25,004 nt of DNA, from the IMG/VR virus record IMGVR_UViG_3300025070_000215, positions 1 through 25,004 of that record, one strand, 5' to 3'. The stretch comes from a virus. A program made the position numbers and the translations under genes. The notes under the pieces were generated by a model. That model searched no databases, was not told the origin of the DNA, and was given only the letters and a program-made list of their open reading frames with translations. Below, in pieces: positions 5,170-25,004 of the stretch; position 1 is the stretch's first letter; every line of letters starts with the position of its first letter.

Positions 5170-5496
5170 ATGTCTGTCATACAAACAGTGACTTATGTAA
5201 ACACCAGTGATGTGAATTACGCCAACGAAGATGATGCAATTGCAGCGATCAGAGATATCTGTATTGCAAGTGGTGACTCTGATCACCTTAATGCTTTAGA
5301 GTCTGCAGCTATTACTGGAGATTTCTTTATTGAAATCACGTTCAACGAATCAACACAAACAATGGAGTTCGAAAGAACTTGGTTGAACTCTGCATGGGAT
5401 GATTACCGTGGTGCATGGCCTGCAGATACAAACGTAAACAAAACAACGTTGGAAGCAGCAGGTTGGACTCTATCAGAGACTATCGCCACGATCTAG
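5170..5496 (+). CDS. Plus-strand late gene, hypothetical (108 aa)
   Basis: The only convincing plus-strand gene. ATG 5170 follows AGGAG by 8 bases; an earlier ATG at 5163 is in another frame and stops after 15 codons. The protein is acidic and mixed alpha/beta: YANEDDAIAAIRDICIASGD, then FFIEITFNESTQTMEFERTW, and a small C-terminal domain with AAGWTLSETIATI. No membrane segment or known motif. Its own canonical late promoter makes a virion or assembly role plausible. Its last 24 bases overlap tail-to-tail with the HAD/PMM-like gene on the other strand. I do not recognise the family. Confidence 0.8.
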   Translation: MSVIQTVTYVNTSDVNYANEDDAIAAIRDICIASGDSDHLNALESAAITGDFFIEITFNESTQTMEFERTWLNSAWDDYRGAWPADTNVNKTTLEAAGWTLSETIATI

Positions 5497-6186
5497 TGTC
5501 TTCAGTATTTCCCAAGTGTCTTTCCAGTCTTTGACTGCAAAAACTTGTTTTGATTTCAAATGTACGGAAAGGGGATAGTCATTACCCCCTTGTTCCATCC
5601 TATCTCCAAAGAAATAGATCTCAGAATATGGAGCGTCGAAGTCATCTAGGATTTGCGACTTGTCTCCACCTTTTCTGTAGATATCTATTCCTGTTTCCCC
5701 ACCAACTGCAGCAGTGATAGTAGGGAACTCCATATTAATTTGAAGTGCTATAGACTCACGTTCTCTAGTTGCCTCGTCATGTTTAATATAGAGTTTTCTT
5801 TCACCCAGTGTACAGTTACGTCCAACGATACTGAAGTTGATTGTACCCCTGCGTTCTTCGATGTGGTTACCTGTGCGTAATGGAAACGAACTACTTTGTA
5901 ACCACCCATGCATTAAGTCATACAACTCTTTGGGCGGTTCAAAAGATTTAGTGTTAACACGTTTTCCTTTAAAGAAGACATCGTTACCAGAACAGTTATA
6001 AACAGTCACAACTTTTTCACATAGTTCTTTACCCAACTGCTCAAGAGTTTTTGGGTAATCAGAACCAGTTACTAACCACACTTTTTCTCTGTCGCAAAAA
6101 TCAAGAAACCAATCCAGAAATTCTGTATTGATCTTTGAACGACTAGGTGTGAGTGTCCCATCTACATCGAAGATAAATCGTTTCAT
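5473..6186 (-). CDS. Phosphomannomutase-like HAD enzyme (eukaryotic PMM type)
   Basis: 237 aa, close to the 246-254 aa of eukaryotic PMM. HAD motif I is FIFDVDGTLTPSR with nucleophile Asp7 and acid/base Asp9. Next come LVTGSDYPKTLEQLGKELCEKV, the RRGTINFSIVGRNCT segment that matches the cap-domain substrate-binding motif of PMM (RNGMLNVSPIGRSC type), then GIDIYRKGGDKSQIL, and motif IV YFFGDRMEQGGNDYPL, which is nearly diagnostic (FFGD...GGND). PMM converts mannose-6-phosphate to mannose-1-phosphate for GDP-mannose synthesis, which would feed the glycosyltransferases at the left end. HAD phosphatases such as sucrose-phosphate phosphatases are the alternative, but the cap motifs favour PMM. Its ATG overlaps the stop of the 30-aa ORF by ATGA. 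Tail-to-tail overlap with the plus-strand late gene. Confidence 0.8.
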   Translation of the reverse strand: MKRFIFDVDGTLTPSRSKINTEFLDWFLDFCDREKVWLVTGSDYPKTLEQLGKELCEKVVTVYNCSGNDVFFKGKRVNTKSFEPPKELYDLMHGWLQSSSFPLRTGNHIEERRGTINFSIVGRNCTLGERKLYIKHDEATRERESIALQINMEFPTITAAVGGETGIDIYRKGGDKSQILDDFDAPYSEIYFFGDRMEQGGNDYPLSVHLKSKQVFAVKDWKDTWEILKTLDRGDSL

Positions 6187-9218: not shown

Positions 9219-9905
9219 TTATAATCTTTTCTGTACTTCGTTGAGGGCCCATTCCCTCTCGTAATCCCACCAACACTTACCACATGGTTTATTTCCATTG
9301 GTTGGTGTGGTGCACGAAACTGTTTGATGAAACAATTTCATTTGTTTAAAGTCTTTGTAACATTGTATTACAAATCTTTTATCTATATTCTTGAATGGAG
9401 TAGTCTCTAAAGGCCAGTCATCCCATGCACTTTCTGACTCACTCATGTAATTTGGTATTCTACGAATCCTCTGGTTACTCACCGTTTTTGGCCAACTGTT
9501 CTGCACCTTGTATGGTGGCCCAAGAGTTATCCCAGTAATGTGTCTCGTGAATGTTGCACCTGCAAGCGCCTTCCTGAGTTTTGTGATATAATCCATTTTG
9601 TTATCCTCACCATTAGAATTAAACACTGTAGAGATAGGCCACTTGATATCTACAGTAGGAAATTTTCTGATAAGAGTAGGGAGAGTTTTTACGGCGGCAT
9701 TAGAATCATGTGGTACATGAATGTCATACCCATTGTAAGGTTGTATAGAAGAATTTAGTTTTAGTTTCTTGATTGTGTTTGCAACAAGGTAACATAACAT
9801 AAGACTATCTGCACCGCCTGACATGGCAATACCAATAATATGTCCATCCCAAAAATCTGGATCTGGTAGAATATCTACCTTACCAAATTTGTTTTCATAA
9901 ATCAT
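9219..9905 (-). CDS. PP-loop ATP pyrophosphatase, QueC/ExsB-like
   Basis: 228 aa. A PP-loop SGGADS occurs at residues 29-34 in [17 protein letters not shown]. The middle is divergent. The C-terminus has a zinc-site-like patch [18 protein letters not shown] (Cys 198, 208 and 211), similar in layout to QueC, which has four cysteines; here a fourth is replaced by Trp/Asp. QueC makes 7-cyano-7-deazaguanine, the precursor of queuosine and of deazapurines in some phage DNA. Other PP-loop members activate carbonyls for amidation or thiolation, so the substrate is open. Its ATG overlaps the ALAS stop by ATGA, suggesting the two proteins are made together. Confidence 0.7.
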
Positions 9906-11095
9906 AACAAAACTTTCTTCAAGGCTTGAACGAGTTCCACCATCATCACATCATCATGGAATGGGGTTGGTGCAATTCGCAATCTTTCGGTTCCTTCTTC
10001 GACAGTGGGATAATTAATAGGTTGGATATAAATCCCATGATTATTTAGAAGATCGTCAGATGCTTCTTTACACTTGAATGCATTGTTTACCATCACAGGA
10101 ACGATATGAGTACAGGCACTCTCATGTACTGGAATGCCTGCGTACTTCAACATTTCTTTTAGGGTGCTTGCTCTTTCTTGATGGACTTGACGGATGGTAG
10201 TGTGGTCACTGAGATATTTGATTGAGGCGATTGCTCCAGCGCAGATGACGGGCGAGATACTTGTTGTAAAGATGAACCCAGAAGCCAAGGCCCTAATAGC
10301 GTCAACGACAATACTATCCCCAGCAATATAACCACCTTGAACCCCAAAGGCTTTTCCCAGTGTTCCATTTATAATATCTACCCTCTCTACTAAACCTAAC
10401 TTTTCACAATAACCACCACCAGTGTCTCCATATAGACCCACTGCATGTACTTCATCGATATAAGTGATTGCACCATATTTATCTGCAAGATCACATATTT
10501 CTTCAATTTTCCCTACGTCACCATCCATAGAATACACAGATTCAAACACGACACATGGAGTTTTGTTTTCCATCTGTGCCAGTTTGAGACAGTGTTCTAG
10601 ATCTTCCATGTTATTGTGTTTGAAGATCATCTTACTCGCACGACTATGTTTCATACCCATAATCAATGAGGCATGATTCTTGTCATCTGAAATAAATCTT
10701 ATGTTGGGGATGATACGACTGAGTGCAATGAGTGACCACTCATTTGCAACATATGCACTGGAGAATAATAGTGCACTTTCTTTTTGGTGGTGTTGTGCAA
10801 GAACTGCTTCAAGTGTCACATGATAATGTGATGTACCACCGATATTTCTGGTTCCACCAGAACCTGCACCAGTCTGATCTAGTGCGGTATGCATGGCATC
10901 AATAACATATTGATTTTGTCCCATGCCGAGATAGTCATTAGAACACCAGTTAACAATGTTTTTTGGTGCATATTTTCCATACCAGATTGAGCGGGGAAAC
11001 TTCCCCCGCTCTCTGAGTATATCGTTGAAGACTCTATATTTGCCTTCGGTTTTAAATTGATGAATTACGTCTTCAAAATAATCTTTTGATATCAT
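9902..11095 (-). CDS. hemA: 5-aminolevulinate synthase (ALAS)
   Basis: 397 aa, a full-length fold-type I PLP enzyme that condenses glycine and succinyl-CoA to 5-aminolevulinate (C4/Shemin pathway). Alphaproteobacterial ALAS motifs run throughout: [54 protein letters not shown] (Asp214, His217), GTLGKAFG (Schiff-base Lys248) and [11 protein letters not shown] with [11 protein letters not shown]. The catalytic Lys, Asp and His fall at the positions known for the Rhodobacter capsulatus enzyme. Other members of the same fold (KBL, BioF) lack the INYPTV and [10 protein letters not shown] combination. The start ATG follows the Grx stop with 39 bases between and a weak ribosome site. It appears in the nrd operon as an auxiliary metabolic gene. 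Strong hairpins lie upstream (11112-11133) and within the 5' coding part. Confidence 0.92.
10989..11011 (-). other. Stable stem-loop in 5' part of ALAS gene
   Basis: GAGCGGGG / CCCCGCTC, an 8-bp perfect stem with a 7-base loop, 84-106 bases after the ATG. It lies inside coding sequence; function unknown. Confidence 0.5.
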
Positions 11096-17874: not shown

Positions 17875-18177
17875 CTATTCGTCGTCCTCATCTTCGTCTT
17901 CATCGTCGTCAGACTTTTTCTTCTTCTTAGGCATTTCATCATCATCTTCGTCTTCATCAGACTCCATGTCATCTTCTTCTTTGACTTTGCCTTCGTCGAG
18001 TTCTGCGTCGATCATGTCCTCTACGGACTCTTCAACTGATTCCTGTGCATCAACCATTTCTTGATACTTTGCTTCTAGTGCAGTCTGTACACGTCCAGAA
18101 ATTTCATCCGCAAAATCTTTTTTCATTTGCATTGGATTATTCGCTAGTGCCGACTGAATAATACTTTCTACAGACAT
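17875..18177 (-). CDS. Acidic prohead core protein, gp67-like
   Basis: 100 aa. A helical N-terminal part (SVESIIQSALANNPMQMKKD) ends in a very acidic tail with D/E runs broken by PKKKKKS. Size, acidic tail and a late promoter directly upstream fit T4 gp67, a core scaffold protein cleaved during head maturation. I rely on composition and context, since the sequence itself is low in complexity. In T4 the gene lies with 20, 68, 21, 22 and 23; here the neighbours are different. Other acidic proteins are possible. Confidence 0.55.
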   Translation of the reverse strand: MSVESIIQSALANNPMQMKKDFADEISGRVQTALEAKYQEMVDAQESVEESVEDMIDAELDEGKVKEEDDMESDEDEDDDEMPKKKKKSDDDEDEDEDDE

Positions 18178-18204: not shown

Positions 18205-18630
18205 CTACTTATTTATAAATTGGGCAAAATCTTTTCTTTTAGAACGATTTTTCTTAACCCATCTGCGTTGTTGTGCCTTAGTAAAGCCAGGCTCTCCTTG
18301 TGCACCAACTCCCAGTCCAGCGACTTTACCACCACCTACATTGTTAGCAGGTTCTTCTTTAAGTCTCTTTTTCATACGTTTGTATCTGGGTGCGTTCATT
18401 TCAGTCTCAACATCTAAGACTGCTTGAACAAACTCCATGAGGTTTTTCATGGCATATTCGTAATTATCATAGTTCTCCATCTTCAAAAAACGCATTGCGT
18501 CTGCATGATCCTTGGCGATCTTCTTTTTCAAAGTCTCAAGGTTCAAACGACCATAACCCTGAATGAGTACTTCAGGGTTTGACCACTCTTTGGCAGTCTC
18601 TGGTTTTCTGAATATGGTTCCCTTTGCCAT
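18205..18630 (-). CDS. Conserved phage protein, basic C-terminus (141 aa)
   Basis: 141 aa. It begins MAKGTIFRKPETAKEWSNPEVLIQGYGRLN, has a helical middle, and ends with a Gly-rich turn then FTKAQQRRWVKKNRSKRKDF. AAGG precedes ATG 18630. I recall relatives with the same W-S-N-P-E-V opening in other T4-like marine phages, unnamed. The basic end may bind nucleic acid. It may be a head-assembly protein because it abuts the late-promoted gp67-like gene. Function unknown. Confidence 0.65.
   Translation of the reverse strand: MAKGTIFRKPETAKEWSNPEVLIQGYGRLNLETLKKKIAKDHADAMRFLKMENYDNYEYAMKNLMEFVQAVLDVETEMNAPRYKRMKKRLKEEPANNVGGGKVAGLGVGAQGEPGFTKAQQRRWVKKNRSKRKDFAQFINK
18210..18217 (-). promoter_or_regulatory. 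T4-type late promoter for the gp67-like gene
   Basis: Exact TATAAATA on the minus strand (plus strand TATTTATA), with its last base 32 bases before ATG 18177 and an AGGAG site between. It overlaps the end of the 141-aa gene. Confidence 0.8.
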
Positions 18631-19617: not shown

Positions 19618-20181
19618 TTAACTATCTGCAACTGTTGCGTCTTCGTCACCAGTTGTTCCAGTCAAACCTGCGTCTCCAGCATCTGCTGAAGTCTTACGCA
19701 TTGCAACCAGTGGTTCGATGCGTCTGCGTGTGTTACCATTCTGATCAGTATATTCTACTACACTATTCCAACCTGCAGTACGGATACCTTTATTACGGTT
19801 ACTTTCTACTGCGGCCTCGTCTTGGTCAACGAAGAACAGATCAGCAGGTGCAACTTGAATAGTATCTTCAGTACCATCACCAACGTTAGTGATGTTTACC
19901 TGTGTACCTGCATTCGCATTTGACAACGATGTTGCAAGTTTAACTGTGTTTTCGTCTTCACGAATGATAAAATACATTTCACCATCTGTAAGACCAACGA
20001 TTGGTGTTACGTTTGATGCATCATATCTTATTCTTACGCCTGTTTCCAGTGCGTGATTTGGTAGAACGATAGTGTCCGCTACTGCACTTACTACTGCAGA
20101 ATCGGATCCATCGATTGTGAATACTGGCGTTTCGAACTTTGGTGCGTCCGCCAGAGTATCAGTGTCTCCCCATTGTGGCAT
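19618..20181 (-). CDS. Probable virion structural protein
   Basis: 187 aa. The N-terminus is MPQWGDTDTLADAPKF, then a beta-rich domain with VLPNHALETGVRIRYD, GLTDGEMYFIIREDENTVKLA and TQVNITNVGDG, which matches a domain repeated in phage fibre and tail proteins. The C-terminal part has RTAGWNSVVEYTDQNGNTRRRIEPLVAMRKT, reminiscent of small capsid or tail-associated proteins of marine myoviruses. An AAGGAG site precedes it, and the ATG shares one base with the stop of the 710-aa gene. Its precise location in the virion is unknown. Confidence 0.68.
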   Translation of the reverse strand: MPQWGDTDTLADAPKFETPVFTIDGSDSAVVSAVADTIVLPNHALETGVRIRYDASNVTPIVGLTDGEMYFIIREDENTVKLATSLSNANAGTQVNITNVGDGTEDTIQVAPADLFFVDQDEAAVESNRNKGIRTAGWNSVVEYTDQNGNTRRRIEPLVAMRKTSADAGDAGLTGTTGDEDATVADS

Positions 20182-22313
20182 TATTCTTCTCCTTGGTTTT
20201 GAAATTCTTTTTCAACAATTTTCGAGATCATCTCGTCTTTGCTCATTTTCTTAACCTTATCTATGTCGGCATCGCTTTCATGCTTTTGATAAAGTTTCAT
20301 CAATTCCACTGGCGGCATTGTTTTAAGTTCATTATATCTGTTTGCAACTTCATCAGATTTTTCTTCTGTTTTAGTTGTTTCTGCAAGTCTCTTACTTAGG
20401 GTATTCTTAAATTTGGTTTTAAAAGAACTTTCTTTAAACACAACTGGTACAGATATAGATGCTTGCGTTTTAGGATCAAGAATCATCATACGTTCTTTAC
20501 CCTTTGTTGCATTCTTAAAGTCTTTGTGAACCTTGCGGAAGTCTTTCTTAGAGATATGGACTTTACCGCCCTTGTACTCATAGTTTTTTGCTTCTTCTAA
20601 TTCTGGTTCAGTATTGACTGTTTCTTTCTTGTCCCAAGGCGCCTTCTTAAGAGTTACTTTTGATTTACCCTTTTTAGAAGTCGCAGATACCTTTGCAAGT
20701 TTTTTTGCAAGTGCCATCTTTTTAGATTCTGTGTGGTAACCTTTGTTATCACAATGATCACAACCTTTACCTCCGCACTCAGGGCACTCCACCTTCTCTT
20801 CGTTCTGTCTCTTTAGAACTGCAGCGACTTGTGGATGGTCTGACAAACCCTTTTTGATTTTATCGATTGCCTTGACTGCACCTGTCATGTTACCACCAGC
20901 ATATCTTTTATCTGATGCAACACCAATTGCCATCTTAACCTCTTTAGGTGAGAATGACATTTTCTCATCAAGTGTTTCCTCATTCAAAGGACGACCCATT
21001 ATTTTATCAGATGCCTTTTGACTTAGAGGTTTTTTGAGTTTAACAATCTTCAGAGTGTTCTTATCTTTGATTGACATAGGTGGACGTTGTGCAGATGCTT
21101 TAGATTGTTTAACACCATCTTCAGATGATGCCATTGCAACAACTTTGTTACCGTCTGCAGTGTTGATAAGCGCATGAGTGTTCTTCATCTCTTCCATGCA
21201 AGAACCTTCATGGACTTTACCACAGTGCTCACACATCTGTGCAGCTTCCTCTAGTTCTTCTTTCTTCAACAACTTCATTGCAACGTTTGCAAGTTGAGTT
21301 GCTTTCATCTTGTCCATCTTCGCCTTGTTCGCATCATTTACTTTGTCGTAAATCTGCGTAACTGCAGAAGCAGTGAACATGTCAACCATAACACCGTCGA
21401 TTTTCATCGCCTGTTTTTTGTCAACGATTTGTTTCATTGCATCAACAGTTTTAGATGCCTCGTCAAGATCGATGTCTTCACAGTTATATTCTTTACCTGC
21501 AAACATAAAGGTCTTTTCACCTTTTGCCTTCGCAGCTTTTGCAGCCATGATAAACCCACGTTTACCTTCTTCGACTTCCGCTTCAGTTACGATAGCCTGT
21601 GGAGAGTAATCCTCACCCATAACCATCTTCTTAACCATTGCATGAAATGCATCATCTGCTTTGACAGGATTCTGAATCTTCTGTCTGATCTTACGGTGTT
21701 CTGGGCCACCATCTAGTTTCTTGTACAGTTTATCAAACGCTTTCTTCTGCGCTGAAGTCATCTCTTTTGCTTCACGAATACTGACACTAAACAACTTTTC
21801 TGCTTGGGGTACACCGATTTGTTTTGCAACTATATCGATGATCTTATCACGTGGTTCTGTATCTTGATCGTTAGTAAACTTCGCAAGACCCTTTGCATCA
21901 CCCTTTTTCATCATCGCCACTGCTTTCATGAAATCTTTCTTATCGATTCCACCAGACTTCTTGGCATATGATTCCAGTTCTTTAGCGGCAGACTTCATGT
22001 CACCTTCACTGAGGTCTACCGCATCAGACTTTTTTACAGATTCGTCTTTCTGATCTTTGGCCATAGCTTTACCGATTGCCTTGCGTCTCTTGTGCAAGAA
22101 CTTATCAGAACTGTCTATATCCCCATCGTTGTCGATATCTTTATCTTTACGATCTTTGAATTTCTTTTTCGCAGCTTTAGGATCTGCTTTGTCCAGACCT
22201 TCGCCGTCATCAGACTTGTCGTTTGATGCGTCTTCTGCTGTGTTCTTTTTCTCTTCTAGTTTCTGGTTCACCAGAGTACCGAAAAGACTGTCTATTTTAT
22301 CTTTAAAGTCCAT
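20181..22313 (-). CDS. Large lysine-rich mosaic protein with repeated LxE junctions
   Basis: 710 aa, very charged. It is a chain of short modules: EF-hand-like DIDNDGDIDSSD (residues 59-70), helices, a GKEYNCEDIDLDEA segment (274-286), CEHCGKVHEGSC (361-372), a CPECGGKGCDHC zinc-knuckle (510-521) resembling DnaJ-type CxxCxG, and a SDKRYAGGNMTGAVKAIDKI module. At most module ends sits a T4 prohead-protease-like (I/L/V)xE followed by a small residue: LSE-G (103), IRE-A (181), VTE-A (244), LDE-A (285), LEE-A (356), LNE-E (445), LDE-K (450), LEE-A (574), LAE-T (645). I infer a protein cut in the maturing head. An AAGGA site precedes the ATG, with a late-like octamer upstream. A purely scaffolding role is an alternative. 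Confidence 0.7.
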   Translation of the reverse strand: MDFKDKIDSLFGTLVNQKLEEKKNTAEDASNDKSDDGEGLDKADPKAAKKKFKDRKDKDIDNDGDIDSSDKFLHKRRKAIGKAMAKDQKDESVKKSDAVDLSEGDMKSAAKELESYAKKSGGIDKKDFMKAVAMMKKGDAKGLAKFTNDQDTEPRDKIIDIVAKQIGVPQAEKLFSVSIREAKEMTSAQKKAFDKLYKKLDGGPEHRKIRQKIQNPVKADDAFHAMVKKMVMGEDYSPQAIVTEAEVEEGKRGFIMAAKAAKAKGEKTFMFAGKEYNCEDIDLDEASKTVDAMKQIVDKKQAMKIDGVMVDMFTASAVTQIYDKVNDANKAKMDKMKATQLANVAMKLLKKEELEEAAQMCEHCGKVHEGSCMEEMKNTHALINTADGNKVVAMASSEDGVKQSKASAQRPPMSIKDKNTLKIVKLKKPLSQKASDKIMGRPLNEETLDEKMSFSPKEVKMAIGVASDKRYAGGNMTGAVKAIDKIKKGLSDHPQVAAVLKRQNEEKVECPECGGKGCDHCDNKGYHTESKKMALAKKLAKVSATSKKGKSKVTLKKAPWDKKETVNTEPELEEAKNYEYKGGKVHISKKDFRKVHKDFKNATKGKERMMILDPKTQASISVPVVFKESSFKTKFKNTLSKRLAETTKTEEKSDEVANRYNELKTMPPVELMKLYQKHESDADIDKVKKMSKDEMISKIVEKEFQNQGEE

Positions 22314-22355: not shown

Positions 22356-22625
22356 CTATTTATGTTCTATAATATTGATGTGAAGTTCGTCAACGCCCTT
22401 TATAAGTCTGTGGTACACACCACGTTCTATTCTGAAGGTTGTTCCCTTTCTGATGAGGAAGGGCAAACATCCGTCGAACTGGAACTGCCATCCGTTCCCA
22501 TCAATGACACGTACTGTTCTGTCGTAATGATCTCTGTGCCAAACATAGTCATCCCGTAAATGGTCAAACCGTCTTGACCCCCCATCATCACGAAATGGCC
22601 TACCAAAAGTAATCTCCGCCACCAC
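22356..22625 (-). CDS. Cupin-like small protein (GTG start)
   Basis: 89 aa. The product contains DDYVWHRDHYDRTVRVIDG, GNGWQFQFDGCLPFLIRK, GTTFRIERGVYHRLIKG and a closing beta strand (DELHINIIE). The H-R-x6-R / YHRLIKG pattern in an all-beta setting resembles small cupin-like proteins of phages. It starts with two GTG codons (22625, 22622) after an AGGA site and overlaps the upstream gene by 26 bases. Substrate or metal are unknown. Confidence 0.62.
   Translation of the reverse strand: MVAEITFGRPFRDDGGSRRFDHLRDDYVWHRDHYDRTVRVIDGNGWQFQFDGCLPFLIRKGTTFRIERGVYHRLIKGVDELHINIIEHK
22357..22364 (-). promoter_or_regulatory. Late-promoter-like octamer before the 710-aa gene
   Basis: CATAAATA on the minus strand, one base off TATAAATA, 43 bases before ATG 22313. 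It overlaps the end of the cupin-like gene. Plausible because other late promoters here have the same geometry, but it carries a mismatch. Confidence 0.5.
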
Positions 22626-22992
22626 TTAATCCTAACTGTTTTGCATATTTCGGTAGACGACACGCCCAATATCCAGGCGTCATCTTATCGGTCTTAGTAT
22701 CACAACTATGACGACTTGCAAATGCACGTGCTGCATCTCTGTCACCAATCTTAGATGTCAATCCACCCTTTTCATCCCCAAATGTTATCTTTCTGACATT
22801 ACCTGTCTTCGGATCCTTTACATAAACAACATACTTTTTGCCATCCCCACTATTTCTTTTTGGAGAGTTGAGTTCTGGTTCTTTCTCTTCACATACGATA
22901 GGATCTATTTCTATCATAGGAGATTCGAGGGGAACTGTTACCCCCTCGTACAAACCAAAATTTTCTACAGTATATTGTTTAAAACGTTTCAC
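22600..22992 (-). CDS. Protein with T4-internal-protein-like N-terminus and phage virion domain
   Basis: 130 aa, GTG start that overlaps the nuclease stop. It opens MKRFKQYTVENFGLYEG, similar to the capsid-targeting sequence of T4 internal proteins (MKTYQEFIAE), with a possible prohead-protease site LYE-G after residue 16. The main domain is GKKYVVYVKDPKTGNVRKIT, then DRDAARAFASRHSCDTKTDK and MTPGYWACRLPKYA, a recurrent marine-phage domain (DUF5872-like, from memory) with two conserved cysteines. It ends in a Gly-rich tail with an aromatic end (GGDYFW). A packaged or virion protein is the best guess. It adjoins an SNase-like nuclease. Confidence 0.65.
   Translation of the reverse strand: MKRFKQYTVENFGLYEGVTVPLESPMIEIDPIVCEEKEPELNSPKRNSGDGKKYVVYVKDPKTGNVRKITFGDEKGGLTSKIGDRDAARAFASRHSCDTKTDKMTPGYWACRLPKYAKQLGLSGGGDYFW
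22926..22948 (-). other. Stem-loop in 5' part of the 130-aa gene
   Basis: CGAGGGG / CCCCTCG, a 7-bp perfect stem with a 9-base loop, 44-66 bases after the start codon. It spans the predicted LYE-G cleavage codons. Confidence 0.4.
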
Positions 22993-23423
22993 TTTACAAC
23001 ACCTTCCAGCATTAGACGTTCTCTGTTCTTCATATGTAACGCCTGAACTTCTTCTTTAGATCCACCAAAGTAAGGGACACAATGCCCTGCGGCGGTCATC
23101 TTTTCAGTGAGTCTTTCCTCACCATCATCTAAGAGGAAGTCTCCCAAGATGCGACCAAACTTACCTTTTTTGTCTTCACCAGACTTATCGATCTCAGTCT
23201 TCAGAATCTGATGACTACCAACAGGCATATGATCTTTTACCCATTTCTTTGCAGCCATACCGAACTTCTTTTCGACCTTATCTCTCGTACGTGACTCTGG
23301 AGTATCAATACCCATAATACGTACACGTTCCTTCTTTAACCATACACCAAAACCTAGATCGATGTCCACATCTACTGTGTCACCGTCTACTACACGAAGG
23401 ATTTTAACTTTGTATTCATACAT
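22989..23423 (-). CDS. Staphylococcal-nuclease-like (thermonuclease) protein
   Basis: 144 aa. KILRVVDGDTVDVDIDLGFG and RVRIMGIDTPESR hold the catalytic residues. Arg35, Asp40 and Glu43 fall on the same numbers as in staphylococcal nuclease, and KFGRILGDFLL carries the second arginine (91). The fold runs to the RLMLEGVVK end. No signal peptide, so it would act in the cytoplasm or in the virion. It degrades DNA or RNA with Ca2+ in the family, but phage homologs may serve in host DNA breakdown. It starts next to the stop of the 51-aa gene. Confidence 0.88.
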   Translation of the reverse strand: MYEYKVKILRVVDGDTVDVDIDLGFGVWLKKERVRIMGIDTPESRTRDKVEKKFGMAAKKWVKDHMPVGSHQILKTEIDKSGEDKKGKFGRILGDFLLDDGEERLTEKMTAAGHCVPYFGGSKEEVQALHMKNRERLMLEGVVK

Positions 23424-23590: not shown

Positions 23591-25004
23591 CTATTTTCTT
23601 CTTTGGTTTCGGAGAATGTTTTCTCTAATTCTCTGCGAAAACCTCTGAGGTTCTGTCGTCGGCTTCTCGCCAGGCGTTTCAGTTTTATATTTCTTCGTAG
23701 TCTCTGGTTTCCCCAACTCAAGTACTTTACTCTCTTTCACGTCCAAACCTTCACGAACCATTACAATATCCTTTTCAAATAGTGAAGCTGTTTTTGAAAG
23801 ATCTTCCTGATCTTTGCTCTCTACCATACTGTTAATCATTTTACCTAAATCGTCTTCTGTGATACCACGTTGTGCTTTCACAGAGGCAATCCATTTTTTC
23901 GCCATTGGAGACTTGGGTTCTTTTGCAACCCATTTCTTCATTTGTTTATATGCTTTGGTTGCACCCTTCTCAAAGTCTGCACCTTCTGAGTTATCAACGA
24001 TCTGCATGTTCGCACCAAACAGTGATGAGAACTTACCAATGTTGTTCTGTACTGCATTCCACATCTTGGTTACTTCTTTCGCACCAAGTGTTCTAGAACG
24101 TTTTTCATCACGTGAGATTGCAGTCTCCAAGTTTGTGTTTACGAAGATCATTCCTACTTCATAACCCAACTTCTTAAGTGACATCGCTTGGTTTGCAATT
24201 TTCTCGTAATCCTTACCAGTACCGTCAATTACCAGACCAAGTCTACCTGCGAGTGCAAGTGCCTGTTTTTTGTCAGTAAGTGCTTTCGCCTTTGCACGTG
24301 CATCCTGTCCTTTAGCGGTGAAGATGTCTTCTGGTGTTGGTTTCAAATCAACTTTTTTCAACTGCGCTTCGAAGGCAGGATCTGAGTTGATCAGTTTCAA
24401 TCCCATTGAAGTCAATGCAGTCTTACCAACCATAAATGATTTACCACTGCCTGGCCCACCTGCGAGGAACACTGCCTTAAAGATGCCAGGATCGTTTACA
24501 CCTTCCTCTAGTGTTTCCACTGATTCTACGTAACCCTTGTCACCTTTTTTCTTACCATGATTCATAACCTTTTTACCAAGTGGTGTGAGGTTACCTTTCT
24601 TGTCATACATTTGGTTGACAAGTTTTTTCTCGGCGGCAGTCAGTTCTACTACAAGGTCACCATAAGATTTCTTGTTTGCTTCTGCCTCTTTGATGATGGC
24701 GTCAAACTGATCATCAATGTTTTCTACTTCTTCCCCACGTAATGACGCAAGTGAACGTTGAGTAGATGTCATTGTACGTACTGGTTTCTTACGTCCAGTC
24801 TTTGTACGACCCATAGCATCGTTGTGTGCTCTATCTTTTGCACGTTGAACAGCAATAGAGTCAACACCAATTTTAGGTGCTCTTTTACGTCTAGGTGCTT
24901 CATCCAAGTCTTCCTTGTACATGTTCAGTTCGTATTTTTTACCGTCCATGTTGTACACTTGGATCTGTACAGCTTTCTTACCAGACTTATCCATCAAACG
25001 ATAT
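23591..25004 (-). CDS. Mosaic LxE protein with zeta-toxin-like kinase domain (5' end beyond window)
   Basis: The frame is open to the right edge with no ribosome site before the first ATG (24994), so it is treated as 5'-truncated; 467 codons follow that ATG (residue 1 here). A P-loop kinase domain spans about 165-378: AVFLAGGPGSGKSFMVGKTA (Walker A 179-186), LINSDPAFE, GRLGLVIDGTGKDY, VNTNLETAISRDEKRS and IVDNSEGADFEKG, the order seen in zeta-toxin/AAA kinases. LxE-type sites flank the segments: LDE-A (32), IKE-A (103), LEE-G (164), ITE-D (380). The rest is basic low-complexity sequence. Zeta-like kinases phosphorylate UDP-N-acetylglucosamine or other small substrates; the target here is unknown. 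The domain assignment is good, its role uncertain. Confidence 0.72.
   Translation of the reverse strand, partial: YRLMDKSGKKAVQIQVYNMDGKKYELNMYKEDLDEAPRRKRAPKIGVDSIAVQRAKDRAHNDAMGRTKTGRKKPVRTMTSTQRSLASLRGEEVENIDDQFDAIIKEAEANKKSYGDLVVELTAAEKKLVNQMYDKKGNLTPLGKKVMNHGKKKGDKGYVESVETLEEGVNDPGIFKAVFLAGGPGSGKSFMVGKTALTSMGLKLINSDPAFEAQLKKVDLKPTPEDIFTAKGQDARAKAKALTDKKQALALAGRLGLVIDGTGKDYEKIANQAMSLKKLGYEVGMIFVNTNLETAISRDEKRSRTLGAKEVTKMWNAVQNNIGKFSSLFGANMQIVDNSEGADFEKGATKAYKQMKKWVAKEPKSPMAKKWIASVKAQRGITEDDLGKMINSMVESKDQEDLSKTASLFEKDIVMVREGLDVKESKVLELGKPETTKKYKTETPGEKPTTEPQRFSQRIRENILRNQRRK

Follow-up and report, generated by a model that had tools for sequence, protein, structure and literature searches.

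Modular architecture of P0001

The 25,004-nucleotide stretch of viral DNA analyzed here (positions 1 to 25,004 of the IMG/VR virus record IMGVR_UViG_3300025070_000215; hereafter, the window) encodes on its minus strand a 710-residue mosaic protein, denoted P0001, which is a train of small modules, most of them ending in a hydrophobic-x-E motif. Such motifs resemble the sites of the bacteriophage T4 prohead protease gp21, which cleaves after L/I-x-E (PMC9026906). Sequence comparison with related phages reveals a cleavage-type motif at the module borders that is kept when the neighboring module changes, the exceptions being the EF-hand-like module and residues 451-574. The gene and its parts are as follows (an arrow marks the point directly after the glutamate):

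20181..22313 (-): P0001, the 710-residue mosaic train protein, ATG start (open reading frame, ORF; homologs in 64 IMG/VR loci)
22251..22313 (-): residues 1-21, MDFKDKIDSLFGTLVNQKLEE↓, candidate head-targeting propeptide (conserved residues; putative role)
22005..22250 (-): residues 22-103, acidic/basic linker and EF-hand-like module DKDIDNDGDIDSSDKFLHKRRKA, end VDLSE103↓G (matches to phrog_22379 and phrog_4359)
21771..22004 (-): residues 104-181, module F (SGGIDKKDFMK...), end VSIRE181↓A (site contexts, folded block)
21582..21770 (-): residues 182-244, module G (FDKLYKK...), end AIVTE244↓A (order swap with F; break in the structural model)
21459..21566 (-): residues 250-285, module J (AKAKGEKTFMFAGKEY), end IDLDE285↓A (contexts in relatives, ortholog alignment)
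21246..21458 (-): residues 286-356, module A (QAMKIDGVMVDMFTASA...), end EELEE356↓A (predicted to fold alone; new contexts; solo ORF)
20979..21206 (-): residues 370-445, end of the CEHC segment and module C (MKNTHALI...), ends RPLNE445↓E, then ETLDE450↓K (ortholog alignment)
20592..20963 (-): residues 451-574, modules B (SDKRYAGG), L (CPECGGKGC) and E (ALAKKLAK), end PELEE574↓A (no site between these modules)
20379..20591 (-): residues 575-645, module I (YEYKGGKVHISKKDFRK...), end KRLAE645↓T (contexts in relatives, ortholog alignment)
20184..20378 (-): residues 646-710, C-terminal module P (weak resemblance to Rho_N, E=0.014, below the cut-off)

P0001 contains 13 [ILV]xE triplets (ending at E21, 103, 181, 244, 249, 285, 356, 369, 445, 450, 574, 645 and 701), and the next residue is A, G, E, K or T in all 13 cases. 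The earlier note on this DNA had counted at least nine, mostly flanked in this way, and the five that it singled out (E103, E181, E285, E356 and E574) are all found at these positions. Because KVHE369 sits within the Cys/His segment and IVE701 reads IVD in loci L006-L009, neither of these two may be a real site. Close to the N-terminus, L19 and E20/E21 are invariant in six orthologs.

No family in Pfam matched P0001 above the cut-off. The full-length AlphaFold2 model is poor (mean predicted local distance difference test score, pLDDT, of 46.7) and has no PDB match with E <= 0.001; it contains a helix at residues 3-24, predicted at low confidence, and a folded block from about residue 100. In this model, the confident blocks are interrupted at 1-99, 180-183 and 234-250, adjacent to E103, E181 and E244/E249. 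Modeled alone, cut essentially at its sites, module A reaches a pLDDT of 89 and a predicted template modeling score (pTM) of 0.75, and this confident stand-alone prediction agrees with module A being an autonomous product. The best structural matches of module A in the viral library are unnamed phage proteins; no convincing PDB match was found for it, a result that is compatible with a known fold.

Hydrophobic-x-E motifs at module borders across the family

A single scan of IMG/VR yielded 64 loci, among which few encode full-length orthologs and most carry one or several modules in other contexts. P0001 thus belongs to a large mosaic family of marine T4-like phages in which modules of approximately 30-90 residues are shuffled, inserted, deleted and swapped. 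In the ortholog alignment, L005 lacks the CEHC segment and, after residue 450, contains an extra module between TLDE↓ and VTE↓; L006-L009 lack P0001 residues ~376-505 and encode modules F and G in the opposite order. Several of these gains, losses and swaps, albeit not all, begin or stop at sites. The ortholog comparison that the earlier note had proposed supports a polyprotein: the sites mark the points of module exchange, insertion or loss, and hydrophobic-x-E persists beside an unrelated module.

To define borders without reference to LxE, 53 mosaic proteins were grouped by shared short homologies, and the homology ends at which the context switches were counted if they lay no more than three residues (<=3) from the motif. 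In this set, [IL]xE coincides with 73 of the 299 context-switched homology starts (22.4 expected) and with 70 of the 333 ends (25.3 expected), a roughly threefold excess of breakpoints at [IL]xE over the expectation; the counts are not independent, so the nominal z values of ~9-11 are not readable as probabilities. LxD and LxK are not enriched at the breakpoints of these 53 proteins (0.8-0.95 times the expectation; LxD, 0.8 times, and LxK, 0.9 times), and in ordinary proteins of the same contigs, for which there are few data, [IL]xE occurs at breakpoints ~1.2-1.4 times as often as expected. When the end of the homology lies on a site in the query, the end in the partner does so as well in 72 of 138 and 92 of 148 cases (15 and 16.5 expected, respectively).

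Modules A and N were rescanned in contexts that had not been used to form the idea. A site closely precedes module A in 26 of the 28 distinct fresh upstream contexts (null, 10.9; standard deviation, 2.3) and is present in 27 of the 28 downstream ones (null, 10.3). Module N is followed directly by a site in 30 of 39 contexts (null, 6.8), with a different module after the site each time. Among the sites that follow module N, P3 is occupied by V, I, M or L and P2 by a variety of residues (K, D, N, E, S), and A, E or G frequently stand at P1'; given that the glutamate at P1 and the set of residues at P3 are conditional on the search motif, the frequency of the sites is the actual test. For module F, all 13 upstream contexts and 12 of the 13 downstream ones carry a site.

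The rule is not universal. In relatives, no LxE boundary is associated with the EF-hand segment (upstream sites in 2 of 16 compared to 2.0 expected), which was accordingly rejected as a site-bounded module. Thus, the claim that LxE motifs occur at changes of module is sustained by a placement across relatives far beyond chance but fails for the EF-hand, which is unbounded, and for the KRYAGG, CPEC and ALAKKLAK segments (residues 451-574), which have no site between them.

Neighboring train, separate-gene versions and targeting N-termini

Two of the genes located upstream of P0001 are relevant here:

22600..22992 (-): small protein with a start similar to a capsid-targeting sequence (CTS), V/MKRFKQYTVENFGLYE↓G (phrog_7595; Melnitz_18 carries its domain as a C-terminal fusion)
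23591..25004 (-): C-terminal portion of a second train, truncated by the window edge (full length, 1351 residues, in the twin contig at L002:668-4720)

The complete second train consists of a cytidyltransferase domain at its head (phrog_3041 match; 528 phage records match this domain), several modules and, at the end, a P-loop kinase of the zeta-toxin/AAA_33 type. In Pfam, solely DUF5824 and Zeta_toxin match it above the cut-off, with AAA_33 just below.

Components of the trains are also encoded by separate genes. The terminal P-loop kinase corresponds to HTVC008M gp129 (MIPFILKE↓GLYDP...), the basic RRxAK module to Melnitz_17 (MKKFSE↓LTSELIE↓R) and HTVC008M gp142 (MRTYRAFKKDPDVVE↓A), and the TGHRPGTTPQQWG module to coding sequence CDS90 of C48C1 (MITFKKYLEE↓); module A is encoded alone, without a propeptide, as a 66-residue ORF in L027. 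Beyond module A, these equivalences come from comparing the sequences side by side, with the long train backed by tblastn. Melnitz also encodes, far from the module cluster, a P-loop kinase in a gene of its own (L088, 65855-66520), and its start is CTS-like (MKTFAE↓LQE↓GVYDPNIF...). A homolog of staphylococcal nuclease (PF00565), without a CTS-like start, is encoded between the two trains of the window (22989-23423, minus strand). In S-RIM8, gp147 (L087:3600-5375) is a train-like cyanophage protein with LEE↓G and FDE↓A couplings, encoded among late head-tail genes beside the small terminase gene.

The capsid-targeting propeptides of T4 depend on residues 4 and 7 for entry and on residues 8 and 10 for processing (PMC9026906); the N-terminus of T4 ipII/ipIII reads MKTYQEFIAE↓A. 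Similar starts are found in relatives, namely, Syn9 gp184 (MKKFSAFLSE↓A), P-RSM4 191 (MKKFNAFLIE↓A), Melnitz_15 (MQGFKTFLSE↓A) and DLP6_66 (MMKFTQFLAE↓S). The strict CTS pattern is present in six Melnitz ORFs (0.3 expected), four of the six within the module cluster. A looser pattern is found in 6 of the 18 cluster ORFs compared to 18 of the 187 remaining ones in Melnitz (P=0.01) and in 7 of 19 compared to 16 of 171 in HTVC008M (P=0.003), where only this looser pattern separates the cluster. CTS-like stretches also occur inside proteins, in Syn9 gp186 (L096:5530-6258; LLTFKQFNE↓G), P-RSM4 193 (L097:4549-5538; LLTFNQFHE↓G) and L025:3396-5051 (TMKRFGTFMNE↓A); possibly, these are scars of gene fusion.

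One member of the family has been detected in virions. S-CREM2 gp154, a cytidylyltransferase annotated as 'virion protein' and homologous to the domain that heads the neighboring train, starts with MKNFSSFLTE↓A and was found in purified virions by mass spectrometry (3 peptides, 11.2% coverage), a detection for which the authors note that carry-over was not excluded (PMC10665884). The same motif is present in head substrates (Melnitz gp23, AFLSE↓A, and gp22, AELEE↓A; T4 gp23, SFLTE↓A), and an S77 family prohead protease is encoded in all five complete isolates checked (Melnitz, HTVC008M, phiM12, C48C1 and S-RIM8) as well as in contig G003.

A probable packaged polyprotein and the alternatives

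We consider it likely that a T4-like marine phage packages P0001 as a polyprotein and that a gp21-type (S77) protease cuts this chain in trans, with the release of small domains. The chain would enter the prohead core and, during head maturation, be cut after the hydrophobic-x-E couplings by the gp21-type serine protease that the phage itself encodes; the released domains, small and mostly basic, would stay in the head and probably reach the host together with the DNA, like IPI-III and Alt of T4. The couplings would double as cassette borders: any module that brings its own site would fit between two others, so that phages could exchange packaged proteins by fusion and recombination. The earlier note had suggested such a polyprotein cut in the head; its polyprotein aspect is backed by the border sites in relatives, whereas two of the modules that it named break the rule. 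Head targeting is supported indirectly, by the T4-like N-termini in the cluster of relatives, the S77 protease in five isolates and the published detection of one family member in cyanophage virions.

Several observations weigh against this interpretation. The total number of [ILV]xE triplets in P0001 is not above chance (13 compared to 9.0 in shuffles of its own composition, the reference for all such counts; P=0.09), so that the strength of the finding must rest on the placement of the sites rather than on their number. In the same shuffles, narrower classes exceed the expectation: [IL]xE (10 compared to 5.5, P=0.04), LxE (8 compared to 2.9, P=0.006), and [ILV]xE followed by A/G/E/K/T/S (13 compared to 4.7, P=0.0006, a value that is partly post hoc because this flanking class came from the earlier note). 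Raw LxE enrichment was rejected as proof given that ordinary proteins exceed shuffles too and the P0001 total is not significant. The N-terminus of P0001, MDFKDKIDSLFGTLVNQKLEE↓K, is conserved, yet is not a canonical T4 CTS, and the strict CTS pattern has no matches in HTVC008M. Furthermore, V and M are common at P3, compared to the L/I-x-E described for T4 gp21, and the second insertion in L005 has its junction at GYH/TESKK, a point at which LxE is absent from P0001. The 117.8-kb twin contig yielded no match to the S77 protease, gp17, gp18, gp20 or gp23; the head region is therefore missing from this contig. Finally, the packaging of P0001, its cleavage, and the survival and injection of the pieces are steps that we infer.

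Two observations of this kind bear directly on one of the two main rivals, namely, that P0001 is a multidomain protein that remains uncut and functions as a single chain inside the head or the cell, with the LxE-rich stretches serving as flexible acidic linkers and recombination joints. Other glutamate-containing patterns are enriched at the borders as well (~1.2-2.4 times, [IL]xE being the strongest), so the borders are Glu-rich in general, and LxE is not depleted within unselected homology segments (68 compared to 61.6 expected). An approximately tenfold depletion inside module cores (3 compared to 31) was set aside because the cores had been drawn between sites and the unselected segments show none. 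That cleavage itself is only inferred also speaks for an uncut chain. However, the hydrophobic residue two positions ahead of the glutamate, which a linker does not require, is kept even when both neighbors change; LxD and LxK lack the enrichment at borders; and the separate-gene versions keep the same site behind a targeting-like N-terminus. The leucine codons differ among the P0001 sites (CTA, CTC, CTT, TTG, TTA), indicating that the motif is kept at the protein level and not as a DNA repeat, so that a DNA-level recombination repeat at the joints is not supported and does not explain the motif. We regard an uncut protein as unlikely.

The other main rival is that the train is prohead core material, packed as a scaffold in the manner of T4 gp22, gp67 and gp68 and cut mainly to clear the head, leaving functionless pieces. 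These T4 core proteins contain several L/I-x-E sites per chain, as P0001 does, and after cleavage at these sites the fragments mostly leave the head (PMC9026906); in addition, P0001 is Lys/Glu-rich, with long low-confidence stretches in its model. Unlike in gp22, however, the sites are not densely repeated but spaced by module and located at module borders; the trains consist of conserved modules, among them module A with its predicted autonomous fold, and include shuffled, enzyme-like domains (cytidyltransferase, P-loop kinase). The genome position differs too: in Melnitz and HTVC008M, the module cluster lies between the helicase and primase genes, outside and far from the gp20-gp21-gp22-gp23 cluster in which a scaffold protein would be expected, and none of the gp20-gp23 genes was recognized beside P0001 in the window. 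Core material thus appears to be quite an improbable explanation.

Relationship to known systems

The closest concept is that of polyvalent proteins (Iyer et al. 2017, PMC5512222), which are multidomain, rapidly rearranged and thought to be delivered with the DNA; the P0001-type chain likewise comprises at least two distinct domains that are rearranged between genomes. Iyer et al. themselves draw an analogy to polyproteins and attribute the release of domains to embedded peptidase domains (PMC5512222). The trains differ in this respect: Pfam searches revealed neither embedded peptidase nor marker effector domains in P0001 or the neighboring train, and the prohead protease would cut in trans. 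The trains could, alternatively, be polyvalent proteins that reach the host uncut, with any processing left to the proteases of the host, given that multidomain injected phage proteins are known and some are delivered unprocessed (PMC5512222). The apparent lack of a peptidase domain and the match between the site pattern and the substrates of the phage's own head protease make whole delivery highly improbable.

By analogy, the trains may work like the internal-protein system of T4 multiplied within one chain. Like T4 IPI, IPII, IPIII and Alt, the cluster of relatives encodes M-K-x-F/Y-x-x-F-[LI]-x-E↓A propeptides, the complete relatives encode the protease family, and the cargo is small and basic, with variable gene content. 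In contrast, the T4 cargoes are single proteins with terminal propeptides, whereas the trains fuse many modules, with a site at most borders and with V or M besides L or I at P3; P0001 itself is not established as a member of the T4 system because its N-terminus is not canonical and its presence in virions is conjectural.

Two further comparisons are with proteins of other phages. In the head proteins of phiKZ and SPN3US, the prohead protease cuts on the C-terminal side of a glutamate that follows a short motif, and cargo is ejected; the SPN3US proteins mainly have single long propeptides with an AxE motif, and no module trains are described in the accessible text. S-CREM2 gp154 represents the virion cytidylyltransferases of cyanophages, an enzyme class shared by the first domain of the neighboring train, but is a separate 286-residue protein for which the accessible text discusses no targeting sequence or processing.

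More broadly, we give somewhat better than even chances to a general system in marine T4-like phages, in which interchangeable, site-ended cargo domains behind one propeptide are cut in trans and co-injected, their repertoires evolving by cassette exchange. LxE-joined polyproteins of such phages have not been reported in the literature searched, most subscription journals being outside it. If such a system exists, a large number of 'hypothetical proteins' in viruses that are among the most abundant in the ocean would share a purpose as head cargo delivered at infection, and a sequence rule (hydrophobic-x-E couplings combined with a targeting N-terminus) would predict injected phage proteins from metagenomes. 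The prohead protease would then gain a second use, as a polyprotein processor, and changes in packaged repertoires would receive an evolutionary account.

Other features of the window

The T4-late promoter motif TATAAATA does not occur upstream of the P0001 gene within the window; its single match on the minus strand is at 18210-18217. Downstream of the train, the minus strand carries two promoters that match the sigma-70 consensus perfectly (TTGACA-17-TATAAT, with extended TG), at 18930-18902 and 16614-16586. A 100-residue protein encoded at 17875-18177 (minus strand), for which no family match was found, has an acidic tail, VEE↓, LDE↓ and VKE↓ sites and, by eye, a composition similar to that of T4 gp67. 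The product of the gene at 9902-11095 (minus strand), 397 residues in length, resembles, by eye, 5-aminolevulinate synthase, a pyridoxal phosphate-dependent enzyme of the heme pathway. The gene at 5473-6186 (minus strand) shows a match to the eukaryotic-type phosphomannomutase family in a phage (PF03332, E=7e-29).

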